Of a stretch of 51,223 nucleotides of DNA, positions 4,623 to 40,990 are shown one piece after another. Position numbers and translations under genes: made by a program. The notes beneath the pieces were generated by a model. The model searched no databases. It saw only the letters and a list, made by a program, of their open reading frames with translations, and was not told the DNA's origin. This stretch comes from Clostridiales bacterium (lineage in GTDB: Bacteria > Bacillota > Clostridia > Christensenellales > Borkfalkiaceae). Each line of letters opens with the position of its first letter. The first letter of the stretch is position 1. The stretch covers positions 1-51,223 of the forward strand of contig JAMPAF010000012.1 of NCBI GenBank assembly GCA_023667345.1. Direction: 5' to 3'.

Positions 4623-4980
4623 ATGAAGAATTAAGAATGCAGAATTAAGAATTAAAATTTTTATTGCAAAGTATTAGCCGCGCGTGGAAAATTTTCCGCG
4701 CGCGGCTATTTATATTATTGCGAGTATATAGGAATGTGTCATTTCGAAGGATATGAGAGTCGTGTAACGGCTCGATTGACTGAGAGAATCCCCTCGTGGT
4801 AATACGTGAAAAATTGGGAAGCGATACGCCTTAAATAGCGTTGTAATGCGGCAGGTTAGTTTTGCGCGAAAAGTATCTCTTTGAGGGCGCGCAAAAAGAT
4901 TATCACGTCATAAACGGCTAATTGTCTTTGCGTTCCAAAATAGTCCGCTATGCCGTTTATTCCTCATAATGACAGTGTGA
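4623..4980. repeat. Heptamer run plus full-length family-M element
   Basis: Bases 4621-4655 are five GAATNNA heptamers in a row (family H, one arm). After the terminator, 4737-4976 is the fullest family-M copy: it opens with GTCATTTCGA, contains AGAGAATCCCCTCGTGGTA and TAATGCGGCAGGTTAGTTTT, and closes with CTCATAATGAC, so the ends GTCATT/AATGAC are inverted repeats. Later parts recur at 17960-18105 and 40780-40970. No gene is present. Confidence 0.75.
4676..4715 (+). terminator. Rho-independent terminator after the aminotransferase
   Basis: A 16-bp stem (AGCCGCGCGTGGAAAA pairing with TTTTCCGCGCGCGGCT, one G-U pair) at 4676-4707 has almost no loop and is followed by atttatatta. Confidence 0.75.
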
Positions 4981-7397: not shown

Positions 7398-7591
7398 ATT
7401 CAGAATGCAGAATGCAGAATGTAGAATGTAGAATGAAAAATACCTTAGACTTGGCTTCCACCTTTTGTGGAAGGCTTGGATTGCGCGAAAGCAAAGGCAC
7501 ACCCCTTTTTAAGGGGGGAGCTCCGCATAGCGGTGAGGGGGGTATACAATTCCGCATTCCGCATTATGAATTCCGAATTAAAAAAGGTTAA
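7394..7591. repeat. Nested repeat: heptamer arms enclosing a family-G unit
   Basis: Forward heptamers GAATTCA, GAATGCA (twice), GAATGTA (twice), GAATGAA fill 7397-7438. A family-G segment occupies 7453-7545 (CTTCCACC...GTGGAAGG, then CTTTTTTAAGGGGGG-like and ctccgcatagcggtgagggg). Reverse-type heptamers follow at 7549-7585. The open frame through it is only repeat sequence, although it lies between two essential genes. Confidence 0.75.
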
Positions 7592-24749: not shown

Positions 24750-24840
24750 ATTCAAACCGCAATAAAGCCTTCCCCTCAACGTACAGAGGGGAAGGCGGCG
24801 CTTTCGCGGCAAAGCAAGAAAGCGACGGAAGAGGTTGCGG

Positions 24841-25191
24841 CTAATCGTCACCTAATTTACTTAAAATATCCTCGCAAACGCTTTTAAATTTTTGGTTAAT
24901 CTCAATATTAGTATATCGTAGCACCGTAATTCCGGATTTGTTTAACGTTTCGTCGCGTTCCTTGTCTTTTTCTTCACCCTCGTCAGTATAGTGTTGCGAA
25001 CCGTCGAGTTCTATTGCAATTTTCTTTTTCTGACAGTAAAAATCAAGTATGTAATTTTTAAAAACATACTGTCGGTGGAATTTGACGTTCAGTTTGTTTA
25101 AAAATTCATACCATAGTTGTTTTTCTTCTTTTGTCATATTCACTCGCAAATTTTGCGAACATTTTGTCAGTTTATCGTTTCGTGTTATCAT
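24841..25191 (-). CDS. DUF559 / VSR-like endonuclease domain protein
   Basis: A 116-residue PD-(D/E)xK nuclease-fold protein. It shows the family N-terminus (ARNLR-like SQNLRVNMTKEEKQLWYEFL, about 12-31), the acidic core Asp50 in NYILDFYC and ELDGSQH (61-67), and the C-terminal strand GITVLRYTNIEI. DUF559 proteins are widespread and related to very-short-patch repair endonucleases; their biological role is mostly unproven. It is AT-rich against its neighbours. Start: the long form keeps the family N-terminus and its ATG lies six bases from a -10 box, so the mRNA would be leaderless. Inverted repeats flank it on both sides. Confidence 0.9.
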   Translation of the reverse strand: MITRNDKLTKCSQNLRVNMTKEEKQLWYEFLNKLNVKFHRQYVFKNYILDFYCQKKKIAIELDGSQHYTDEGEEKDKERDETLNKSGITVLRYTNIEINQKFKSVCEDILSKLGDD

Positions 25192-25197
25192 AATACA

Positions 25198-25226
25198 AGT
25201 TTATTTTAATTTGAAAATTATGTCAA
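25198..25226 (-). promoter_or_regulatory. Promoter of the DUF559 gene, start site at the ATG
   Basis: On the minus strand TTGACA (25226-25221) and TAAACT (25203-25198) are 17 bases apart. The ATG begins at 25191, seven bases from the end of the -10 box, with no Shine-Dalgarno between. Confidence 0.7.
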
Positions 25227-25329
25227 TAATGCGGAAGTGATTTTCCGCAACCTCTATCGTCACCGCCTTATCAGTCGGCGACACTTTCCCCTTTGTACGT
25301 TAAGGGGAAAGCCATATTAAGGTGAAAAA

Positions 25330-25362
25330 GCGGCGGGCAAATTGCCCGCCGCAAATTTTTTT
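25330..25362 (+). terminator. Terminator of the recJ-relA-hemZ operon
   Basis: GCGGCGGGC-aaatt-GCCCGCCGC (25330-25352) is followed by AAATTTTTTTT. It is the first plus-strand terminator after hemZ but lies 580 bases beyond its stop, past the DUF559 cassette. Confidence 0.88.
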
Positions 25363-28206: not shown

Positions 28207-28280
28207 TTCCCTTGCTTTCCCCTTTGAAGGGGAAAGTGTCACGTAGTGACGATAGAGGTTGATATAAATACAAAACATAA
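28207..28280. repeat. Family-G unit between pnp and its terminator
   Basis: GCTTTCCCCTT-tga-AGGGGAAAG, then GTGTCACG-ta-GTGAC, then GATAGAGGTTG (28214-28261). This is the compact consensus form of the arms that flank the DUF559 gene. A partial relative (ACCTTCACCCTAAGGGGAAGGT) lies at 28328-28352. Confidence 0.75.
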
Positions 28281-28318: not shown

Positions 28319-28367
28319 ACCGCAATAAGACCTTCACCCTAAGGGGAAGGTTACAATAAGGTTTAAA

Positions 28368-29122: not shown

Positions 29123-29360
29123 GTAATTAAGAATTAAGAATTCAGAATTAGAAATCTGACCGAAGTCGAGGCTTCCCCTTGGTGGGGAGGCTCCGCGTAG
29201 CGGTGGTGAGGGGAATTCTTTTAATTATACCCCTCATCCGTCACAACCTTTATGGTTGTGCCATCCTTCTCAACGTAGGGGGAAGGCTTAATTGCAGAAT
29301 AATTATTTAAATAATCCGACCTTCATTCTTAATTCTACATTCTACATTCTGCATTAACCC
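29123..29360. repeat. Nested element: heptamer arms enclosing an inverted pair of family-G units
   Basis: Forward heptamers at 29123-29148 and reverse ones at 29325-29357 enclose 29170-29289. The inner part is two facing G units (GGCTTCCCCTT...ggtgaggggaatt, and its inverse ending AGGGGGAAGGC) separated by about 16 AT-rich bases. It resembles the DUF559 cassette with no gene inside. The core aataattatttaaataatccgacc also occurs at 13491-13516. Confidence 0.7.
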
Positions 29361-36574: not shown

Positions 36575-38407
36575 TTGATAAGAGAAGATTTAAGAAACGT
36601 GGCAATAATTGCCCACGTAGACCACGGCAAGACAACGCTTGTCGACGCAATGTTAAAGCAAAGTCACACCTTCCGCGACAATCAGGCGGTTGAAGAGCGC
36701 GTTATGGACAGCGGCGATATCGAAAGGGAAAGGGGCATAACCATTCTCGCAAAAAACACGTCGCTCCACTTTGGCGGCGTTAAAATTAACGTTGTCGACA
36801 CACCGGGGCACGCCGATTTTTCGGGCGAGGTAGAGCGCGTAATGATGATGGTAAACGGCGTTTTGGTGCTCGTCGACGCGGCTGAAGGACCCATGCCGCA
36901 GACCCGCTTCGTCATGCAAAAGGCGCTCGAAATGGGGCACAGACTGATAATCGTCGTCAACAAAATCGACCGTCCCGACGCCCGCTTAAACGAAGTTCAG
37001 GACGAAATTTTAGAGCTTTTACTCGAACTCGACGCGTCTGACGACCAGTTAATGTCGCCCGTCGTGTGGTGCTCGGGGCGCGACGGCACGGCGACGCTCG
37101 ACTTAAATACCCCCGGCAAGGACTTAACGCCCCTCTTCGAAACTATCCTTTCGCACATCAAGCCCATGGAAGTGGACGCGGAGGGCGAAACGCAGATTCT
37201 CTGCTCGTCTATCGACTACAACGACTACGTGGGAAGGATAGGCATAGGCAGAATAGAGCGCGGTGTAGCCAAGGCGGGACAAGCCGTCGTTTTAACCAAC
37301 TACAACAACCCCGCGCTGCGCGTGCAGGGCAAGATAGTCAACCTCTATCAGATAGAAGGACTTGCGCGCGAGCCCGTCGAAGAGGCAAAGGCGGGCGATA
37401 TCGTCTGCTTCTCGGGGCTTGAAAAAATAAATATCGGCGACACCGTGTGCTCTTTAACTTGCCCCGAACCGCACAAATTCGTTAAAATTACCGAACCCAC
37501 CGTCGAAATGACCTTCTCGGTCAACGACTCGCCGTTCGCGGGCAAAGACGGCAAGTTCGTCACAACCCGCCACCTTCGCGACAGACTTTTCCGCGAACTT
37601 CTTCGCGACGTATCCTTAAAAGTCGAGGAGACGGGCTCGGCGGACAGTTACAGAGTCTGCGGCAGAGGTGAAATGCACCTTTCGATTTTGATAGAGGAAA
37701 TGCGCCGCGACGGCTATGAGTTTCAGGTTTCCACGCCCCGCGTAATGTACAGGGAGATTGACGGCGTCAAGTGCGAGCCCGTCGAAAGGCTGATTGTCGA
37801 CGTTCCCGACGAAGCCACGGGCGCGATTTTCCAGAGTATGGGCAACCGCAAGGGCGAGCTTCTGCATATGTCGGCAATCGGCACGCGCACGCGCCTCGAA
37901 TTTTTAATTCCCGCCCGCGGACTGTTTGGCTACAAGTCGGAATTTCTGACCTCGACGAAGGGCGAGGGCATAATGAGCAGCGTGTTCTTCGAATACCAGC
38001 CGTATAAGGGCGATTTAAGCCGCCGCAACACGGGCTCACTCGTCGCGTTCGAAACGGGCGAGGCGGTAACCTACGGGCTCTTCAACGCGCAGGGCAGAGG
38101 CGCTCTGTTTATCGGCGCGGGCACGCCCGTGTACGAGGGCATGGTCGTCGGCGAAAGCCCCAAAAACGAGGATATCAACGTAAACGTGTGCAAGACAAAG
38201 CACCTCACAAACACCCGTTCCTCGGCGTCCGACGACGCGTTGCGTCTTATAACGCCTAAGAAAATGAGTTTGGAGGAGTGCCTCGAATTTATCGGCGACG
38301 ACGAACTTTTGGAAATCACGCCCAAAAATATCCGCATAAGAAAGCGCATTTTAGACAGCGAACTGCGCGCCAAAGCCAACGCCAAAGCAAAGAAAGGGAT
38401 AGAGTAA
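36575..38407 (+). CDS. typA: Translational GTPase TypA/BipA
   Basis: A 610-residue ribosome-binding GTPase needed under stress and in ribosome assembly. G1 AHVDHGKTT (13-21), switch I RGITI, G3 DTPGHADF and G4 VNKIDRP are intact. EF-G-like domains II, III and V and the TypA-specific C-terminus ([30 protein letters not shown]) follow. The start codon is TTG (36575) with GAGG seven bases upstream. Monocistronic by position; a long repeat tract follows. Confidence 0.97.
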
Positions 38408-38640
38408 TTCAGAATTAAGAATTAAGAATTAAGAATTAAGAATTGCAGTAAATTATTATTTAAAAATAATTCGCAAGCCCATAGGAGCGTGTCATTTCGA
38501 GTGGAGGAAGAAGCCCTGCAAGGGGTTCGACCGACCGAGAGAATCCCCTCGCGGTAATACGGCGGCAAGTAGGAAGCGAACATACGCAGACTGCGTAAGA
38601 CCGGATTGCCGCGGCTTCGCCAGCGCAATGACATATTGAC
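38408..38640. repeat. Family H + family M composite, left copy of a 156-bp direct repeat
   Basis: Four AATTAAG heptamers, a palindromic core (taaattattatttaaaaataatt), then a family-M segment GTCATTTCGAGTGGAGG...AGAGAATCCCCTCGCGG to GCGCAATGACA near 38631. Bases 38413-38568 recur at 40521-40676 with about five differences by eye. Confidence 0.85.
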
Positions 38641-40540: not shown

Positions 40541-40990
40541 GAATTAAGAATTGCGGTAAATTATTATTTAAAAATAATTCGCAAGCCCATAGGAGTGTGT
40601 CATTTCGAGTGGAGGAAGAAGCCCCGTAAGGGGTTCGACCGACCGAGAGAATCCCCTCGTGGTAATACGGCGGCAATTGGGAAGCGTCATTTCGAACGCC
40701 CGCGTAGCGTTTGCCCGAATACCGTCATTGCGAGGTTGCAAGGCAACCGTGGCAATCCAGAATTACGGAGTTTATGTAAGTTCACCTTAAACAGCGTTGT
40801 AATGCGGTAAGGTTAGTTTTGCGCGAGAATACCTCTTCGAGGCACGCAAAAAGATTCTTCGACTGCGCACGGCGAAAACTTGCGAGTTTCAATGTTTTGC
40901 CGCTTTGCCGTGCTACGCTCATAATGACGGTTTGTTAAGTCCGCAATGCCGCAAAAACCTCATAATGACGCGGCGGCGGGGTGGATATAT
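40521..40990. repeat. Right copy of the 156-bp direct repeat plus further family-M elements
   Basis: 40521-40676 repeats 38413-38568. A second M element starts at GTCATTGCGAGG (40724) and ends at CTCATAATGAC (40928), or at a further CCTCATAATGAC (40969). Its middle matches 4825-4976 and 17960-18105. No gene in 40541-41046. Confidence 0.8.

Follow-up and report, generated by a model that had tools for sequence, protein, structure and literature searches.

A nuclease gene between palindromic repeats that occur in hundreds of copies, often as inverted pairs, is the architecture of the REPtron (tnpAREP/RAYT with its REP, BIME and REPIN repeats). In the passages of PMC8266576 that treat this system, the type of repeat and the type of enzyme seem to evolve together, and tnpAREP is mostly single-copy, with no evidence of mobility. 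The BoxC, PIT and TM_ECO triplex repeats combine a C-rich hairpin with a G-rich third strand and form inverted A/B pairs (excerpts of PMC4666352); these repeats have so far been described without a known spreader. DUF559 (YcjD) is a nuclease family that occurs widely and whose function is not settled; an excerpt of PMC1189080 places it in the PD-(D/E)XK superfamily, near Vsr. A Caulobacter DUF559 protein was responsible for an SOS response without a methylase (abridged text of PMC12907096), which fits DUF559 as a DNA-damaging nuclease. In evolved Legionella populations, one of two groups of mutation and recombination hotspots was a repeated segment that carries a transposase as well as a DUF559 gene; hairpin repeats are unmentioned in the passages concerned (PMC12308824). 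A link between DUF559 or ycjD and hairpin repeats was not found among the top matches for broad topics in the open-licence literature, represented by partial texts (including PMC12907096, PMC12308824, PMC9845703, PMC8861277 and PMC3943268).

The DNA analysed here is a 51,223-nt stretch of a Clostridiales bacterium (contig JAMPAF010000012.1), referred to as the window. The window contains a block (24767-25312) in which a DUF559 (PF04480) nuclease gene is placed between two inverted hairpin units. The nuclease gene (24841..25191, minus strand) encodes 116 aa and has a GC content of 33%, compared with 50% for hemZ and for the window. Each repeat unit is built from a C-rich hairpin (hairpin 1; CTTCCCC...GGGGAAG), a second hairpin (hairpin 2) and a GAGG tail ending in GAGGTTGCGG. 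In the left unit (plus strand), hairpin 1 (GCCTTCCCC...GGGGAAGGC; 24767..24796), which is also terminator-like on the minus strand, is followed by hairpin 2 (24799..24824), whose stem letters are unlike those of the right unit with the pairing kept, and by the GAGGTTGCGG tail (24831..24840), which abuts the stop codon of the nuclease gene. In the right unit (minus strand), the GAGGTTGCGG tail (25245..25254) faces the nuclease gene and is followed outward by hairpin 2 (25259..25282), located by DNA folding, and hairpin 1 (25283..25312), located by pattern and DNA folding. Between the gene and the right unit, a promoter-like site (TTGACA-17-TAAACT; 25198..25226, minus strand) matches the consensus at 10 of 12 positions, and sites of that kind occur six times in the stretch against 2.4 expected.

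The units stand in inverse orientation, with both tails directed toward the DUF559 gene. In an inverse alignment from hairpin 1 through GAGGTTGCGG, the left and right units reach a local score of 31, against a best score of 17 in 2000 single-base shuffles of the left unit. Each flanking unit folds as two adjacent DNA hairpins (z of -5.1 and -5.4), and none of 200 shuffles was as stable. The sequence-only reading of this DNA had described such an arrangement of paired, inward-facing two-hairpin units, and the alignment and folding bear it out.

The window protein is DUF559 from end to end (PF04480, E 1.9e-30, residues 7-113 of 116), and the only profiles that match it are DUF559, MTES_1575 and DUF2726. 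Its conserved residues are E23, D50, E61, D63, H67 and D76. In the numbering of the compared loci, which is lower by four, E19, D46, E57 and D59 are present in 140 of 140 loci, and H63 and D72 in 99%. On the basis of these acidic residues of catalytic type, the window protein is predicted to be a PD-(D/E)XK/Vsr-like nuclease. The nuclease is under purifying selection, with a median dN/dS of 0.063 over 43 pairs at 75-97% identity. The DUF559 profile also matches PDB entry 3r3p, 'Mobile intron protein' (E 7.8e-5), which we take to be I-Bth0305I, and the relatives of the profile include homing endonuclease families in PADLOC and PHROGs. The window protein shares this sequence-profile similarity with EDxHD homing endonucleases such as I-Bth0305I and with Vsr. 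It differs from the EDxHD enzymes in that it is a compact 116-aa domain with hairpin-repeat borders and no intron or intein seen.

The repeat is abundant beyond the block. The pattern TTCCCC-N3-13-GGGGAA occurs three times in the window against 0.01 expected, and TTCCCC-N3-13-GGGGAR gives 242 forward and 244 reverse matches, mostly at the same sites, in the 1.59-Mb assembly, compared with 4 and 5 for the reversed control pattern. The gene-less copies that the sequence-only reading had listed in the window are in place. They comprise a single unit downstream of pnp (28214..28261, plus strand; folding z -6.5), an inverted pair whose tails face each other (29170..29289), a lone hairpin 1 remnant (28330..28351, listed at about 28328), and one or more degenerate units with hairpins and a GAGGGGGG tail (7453..7542, plus strand), recognised by eye. 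The 29170..29289 pair, a proposed non-autonomous form, folds weakly better than shuffles (z -2.4 for each unit). Among 52 tabulated sites of the assembly, which are part of the matches listed, 16 successive spacings measure 46-128 nt and one more 264 nt. Three pairs read in sequence (L253, L255 and L257) consist of inverted units whose tails meet in the middle of the pair, span 130-136 nt and hold no gene, which is the layout of a non-autonomous copy.

Pairing in hairpin 2 is conserved: the 10 distinct second hairpins of this genome have a mean stem of 6.2 bp against 2.1 bp in shuffles, of which the anchor letters of the search can give about two pairs. The aligner left the second hairpin unaligned across units. 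GTAG or CTAC was present in 1 of 23 units. The assembly, which is 83% complete, contains two full DUF559 genes, and both have units on both sides. The second gene (contig C11) has an inverted pair and a partial hairpin on its left and two units with tails pointing at the gene on its right, a less neat layout than that of the window. No intact Y1/RAYT gene (PF01797) was detected in this 83%-complete assembly. Its sole Y1 match is a 44-aa fragment (G000:C27:479-604); on that side the contig runs on past the fragment, which is therefore not truncated by a contig end.

Two other kinds of repeat were observed in the window. A separate interspersed family (GAGAGAATCCCCTCGTGG...GGGAAGCGAAC) is located at 2372-2416, 2629-2673, 4782-4826, 38537-38581 and 40645-40689, and is associated with a 184-nt duplicate, 92% identical, at 38395 and 40503. 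Arrays of a 7-nt word (AAGAATT/GAATTCAGAATGCAGAATG) occur in at least 18 places between 4610 and 51216, some of them adjoining hairpin units.

The DUF559 gene is patchily distributed among relatives. Any match, weak partial ones included, was found in 21 of 61 congeners, 16 of which have strong matches, and across the family in 58 of 201 genomes. Some genomes have several copies, one of them five, and in other bacteria the gene is also carried on plasmids. The flanks of DUF559 genes were analysed in a family set of 65 loci (one duplicate and eight places without a strong match were left out, and a few strong or fragmentary places are not included) and in a named-contig set of 75 loci with mostly Clostridia titles. 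The latter set comprises the best 80 of 566 relatives minus five duplicates, a selection biased towards near relatives of the window protein. The density of C-rich hairpins is 4-9 per kb in the 100 nt next to DUF559 and 0.1-0.5 per kb more than 500 nt away. Within about 260 nt, they are present on at least one side in 112 of 131 scorable DUF559 loci and on both sides in 66. By comparison, among 29 scorable control loci of the ParE toxin from the same family of genomes, the corresponding counts are one and zero. In relatives, where the lack of such a link would have told against the sequence-only reading, the association of DUF559 genes with repeats is thus far beyond chance. The detector found no hairpin at 19 of the 131 DUF559 loci. 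In a separate case (L345), a compact DUF559 gene lies near an apparent CRISPR array; the repeat there (AGAGAGGCTAGGTGAG) is of another kind and escaped the detector.

The association is specific to a compact DUF559 clade. In a phylum-wide draw of 398 genomes, 29 new loci were scored, which are part of the matches listed. A hairpin on any side was observed for five of seven strong single-domain matches; one locus of the two that lack it offers only 47 nt of upstream sequence. Among proteins with weak DUF559-like domains, the corresponding figures are 3 of 17 for small and none of 5 for large ones, and the association is assigned to the compact clade because of this difference. Among 50 de-duplicated, more distant relatives on viral contigs, three have hairpins on both sides. 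An inward orientation of the units is common but not universal: in a hand count, the nearest full unit, in some cases more than 400 nt off, points towards the gene in 19 of 29 upstream and 21 of 34 downstream flanks. Alignment of left against right flanks gave scores of at least 22 in 35 of 59 loci for the inverted and 32 of 59 for the direct comparison, against 33 of 472 in a cross-locus control. Since each side can carry units of either orientation, this alignment is a poor statistic, and it was replaced by the hairpin counts with the ParE control. Across the 61 congeners, an excess of one hairpin type was found in 7 of 16 genomes with DUF559 and 8 of 45 without (one-sided p 0.048); this correlation between repeat load and DUF559 presence is weak and carries little weight because the pattern covers only some repeat types.

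The same pairing of gene and hairpins is observed in other phyla. A tblastn search of plasmid records yielded 29 records, of which 17 were scored; two Neisseria, a second E. coli, five additional Azospirillum, two additional Sinorhizobium, a second Picosynechococcus and one partial match were left out. C-rich hairpins accompany all 17 loci, which come from Deinococcota, Cyanobacteriota and Proteobacteria and include E. coli ycjD: they lie no more than 265 nt away on one side or both, and on both in 11 loci, compared with 4 of 68 control windows. On the 132-kb plasmid of Deinococcus proteolyticus, one hairpin pattern marks an empty pair, another that encloses DUF559, and a single chance-like match, and its reversed control gives two matches. 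On a 215-kb Pseudanabaena plasmid, all six matches (five sites) fall within 6.4 kb around DUF559, and the control gives none.

In E. coli, the DUF559 gene ycjD (1351407-1351760) is located between sapF and fabI. The triplex motif TM_ECO no. 9 (1351204-1351239), one of 23 in MG1655 according to the accessible part of PMC4666352, is located 168 nt from ycjD. Beside the gene, a C-rich hairpin 1 precedes a purine third strand that matches the hairpin's arm. In the same part of PMC4666352, Holder et al. (2015) state that mobility activities were never found near triplex motifs, and 'ycjD' is absent from the main text of that paper. In strain KE47, 2 of 15 matches to a BoxC-like pattern lie within 260 nt of ycjD in opposite orientations, a soft count because the reversed control pattern gave 12 matches at the same looseness. 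Of 5426 E. coli genomes, 3330 match a sapF-ycjD-fabI query over at least 80% of its length, and ycjD looks settled in E. coli, like a resident gene. In E. coli 5283, which lacks ycjD, the eef efflux operon is located between sapF and fabI, a site at which many E. coli carry an efflux operon (passages of PMC12817139). The alternation of ycjD, with its BoxC units, and the eef operon at one E. coli site is reported in PMC12817139, whose passages contain no mention of the repeats.

Presence and absence of the cassette are observed at several sites, which were matched by protein alignment rather than base by base, with proteins roughly 50-75% identical. The hemZ-rpsO gap of the window measures 825 nt. 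At the 29 other hemZ-rpsO loci, DUF559 is absent; 22 of these have hemZ in place, and one starts at rpsO. The gap at the 22 loci is 133-195 nt in 13 and longer, with other content, in nine. Among congeners with hemZ before rpsO, none of the 22 has DUF559 at this place, and conservation of the hemZ-DUF559 arrangement, which would have spoken against a mobile block, is not seen. The sequence-only reading had also proposed that the block separates hemZ from its terminator. A terminator-like hairpin indeed lies beyond the right unit (25330-25352), but its origin with hemZ is not established: a scan for terminator-like hairpins found none in the 195-nt hemZ-rpsO gap of the nearest relative found, whose hemZ is 78% identical.

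In the hpa operon of Deinococcus, DUF559 is inserted between the oxidoreductase gene and hpaE in strain NW-56 and between hpaB and the oxidoreductase gene in D. proteolyticus. A shortened remnant (L334:648-809) occupies the latter junction in D. wulumuqiensis, DUF559 adjoins a VOC gene in D. aetherius, and D. deserti has no DUF559 in the operon. A DUF559 gene separates paaD from paaZ in D. psychrotolerans and is absent from this place in strain QL22. In Nostoc a DUF1156 gene is open, and its Synechocystis B12 counterpart is interrupted by a cassette; this B12 gene is also frameshifted, and 37 Nostoc residues are without a counterpart at the split. Another cassette of Synechocystis B12, a repeat pair with a nuclease gene, is located inside pglX. 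The same pglX site contains neither repeat pair nor nuclease in Planktothrix and only an in-frame repeat pair in Pseudanabaena galeata, where it encodes the peptide SPHPLAPSPKGRG...RPLGEGLGVRE. The site is therefore found in three states in three cyanobacteria: empty, with the pair alone, and with the pair and the nuclease. From these comparisons, the nuclease gene itself looks mobile.

Repeat type and nuclease type travel together. Over 140 loci, nuclease identity correlates with the words common to the flanks (0.33; none of 500 permutations as high), and without pairs of similar outer neighbourhoods the correlation is 0.32, a value that none of 300 permutations reached. Flank repeats are common to 88% of the 33 non-syntenic pairs whose nucleases are at least 80% identical, although these pairs are not independent events because they come from about five groups of related nucleases. 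The mean fraction of flank words in common is 0.035 in 29 pairs of same-genome paralogues, slightly above the 0.021 of other pairs of like identity, and 0.29 in pairs above 80% identity. In one group (L115, L117, L122, L140, L146 and L042, with the left-truncated L152), the common block has a sharp left border at the hairpin. Other groups have less sharp borders: the end of the common block lies 15 nt or less from the edge of a hairpin in only 9 of 19 comparisons on the left and 12 of 35 on the right. The block common to L115, L117, L122, L140, L146 and L152 runs about 140 nt past the right hairpin. This extension is itself another inverted repeat (AAAATACGGCATA...TATACCGTATTTT). Because repeat type follows nuclease lineage more than host genome, and because cassettes occupy sites that are repeat-free in relatives (hemZ-rpsO and the D. 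deserti hpa operon), the repeats and the gene seem to arrive together.

These observations are best explained if the block is a minimal mobile cassette in which the nuclease acts on its own hairpin repeats and of which the gene-less pairs are non-autonomous copies, a reading that we consider probable. We infer that this action is exerted by cutting or nicking. The DUF559 nuclease would recognise the hairpin repeat of its own type, either folded or as a duplex, and would cut or nick the DNA at this cognate hairpin. Repair or strand transfer would then copy the cassette, or a gene-less unit pair alone, to a new site, and the scattered pairs and single units would represent non-autonomous or decayed copies.

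Part of the evidence could also be read as homing alone, with the repeats spreading by other means and DUF559 acting as a free-standing homing endonuclease that cuts gene-less pairs and places a copy of itself between the two halves. The pglX site, where Pseudanabaena has a bare pair and Synechocystis a pair with the gene, the Deinococcus MRP plasmid with one empty and one gene-holding pair, and the profile similarity to the mobile intron protein and homing endonuclease families all agree with such a process. The dependence of repeat type on nuclease lineage rather than host genome, and the filled sites that are repeat-free in relatives, argue against it, and homing alone is an unlikely account. 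A role in host repair, in which a Vsr-like DUF559 enzyme resolves hairpins or mismatches at the repeats and adjoins them owing to that job or to regulation, appears still less probable. Such a role would suit the place of the family next to Vsr in the superfamily (excerpt of PMC1189080) and the strong purifying selection on the nuclease, but a trans-acting enzyme need not adjoin its substrate, and the gene is patchy, multi-copy in some genomes, carried on plasmids and inserted inside other genes.

DUF559 might instead be cargo of an element whose repeats are moved by another transposase, for example a RAYT. The absence of an intact Y1 transposase from the 83%-complete assembly and the recurrence of the DUF559-repeat pairing in four phyla, set against the single ParE locus in 29, make this very improbable, even though the repeats far outnumber the nuclease genes, as expected if another factor moves them, and a transposase and a DUF559 gene share the Legionella segment (passages of PMC12308824). 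Membership of the nuclease in the RAYTs was rejected: it matches no HUH/Y1 profile, the assembly has no intact Y1 gene and GTAG is confined to 1 of 23 units. Finally, the hairpins could be ordinary terminators, or G+C-rich intergenic hairpins in a meaningless arrangement; left hairpin 1 is terminator-like behind the nuclease gene, and the units lie mostly between genes. The control counts (window, assembly, ParE and other-phyla windows), the conserved second hairpin (6.2 against 2.1, with about two pairs attributable to the anchors) and the insertions inside genes leave this explanation with almost no probability, and chance was rejected on the pattern count in the window (3 against 0.01 expected) and the locus counts (112 of 131 against 1 of 29 for ParE).

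As a nuclease-bearing cassette, the block appears by analogy to work like the REPtron, with an unrelated enzyme and a mobile-looking gene. The analogy with RAYTs drawn in the sequence-only reading is upheld for the architecture, in which repeats surround a nuclease gene and form inverted pairs elsewhere, but does not extend to the enzyme, which is of PD-(D/E)XK type rather than HUH, or to a GTAG tag. The clostridial-type unit differs further in having two hairpins. In contrast to tnpAREP, the DUF559 gene is patchy, multi-copy and found at varied sites. The BoxC/PIT/TM build was seen by eye in the DUF559 flanks of Deinococcus, cyanobacteria and several proteobacteria, whereas the window units contain a variable second hairpin between hairpin 1 and a short GAGG tail. 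IS200/IS605 elements and MITEs are likewise small, with hairpin ends and gene-less derivatives; the DUF559 cassette differs from them in lacking a Y1 transposase and in having ends inverted to each other, and from the Legionella segment in that the latter has a transposase.

More tentatively, and with somewhat less than even confidence, compact DUF559 proteins may be pan-bacterial transposition enzymes with a single PD-(D/E)XK/EDxHD-type nuclease and hairpin or triplex ends, and may be the agent behind BoxC/PIT and many unnamed G+C-rich repeats, including those that form proline-rich peptides in proteins. If DUF559 and the BoxC/PIT/triplex repeats prove to be linked, each would gain a testable function, and a second, unrelated enzyme class would join the repeat-plus-nuclease lifestyle so far described for RAYTs. 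The family would provide a compact nuclease, possibly one that recognises DNA hairpins or triplexes, and its activity would account for some of the insertions that split genes and for the proline-rich peptide read in frame within one annotated protein.
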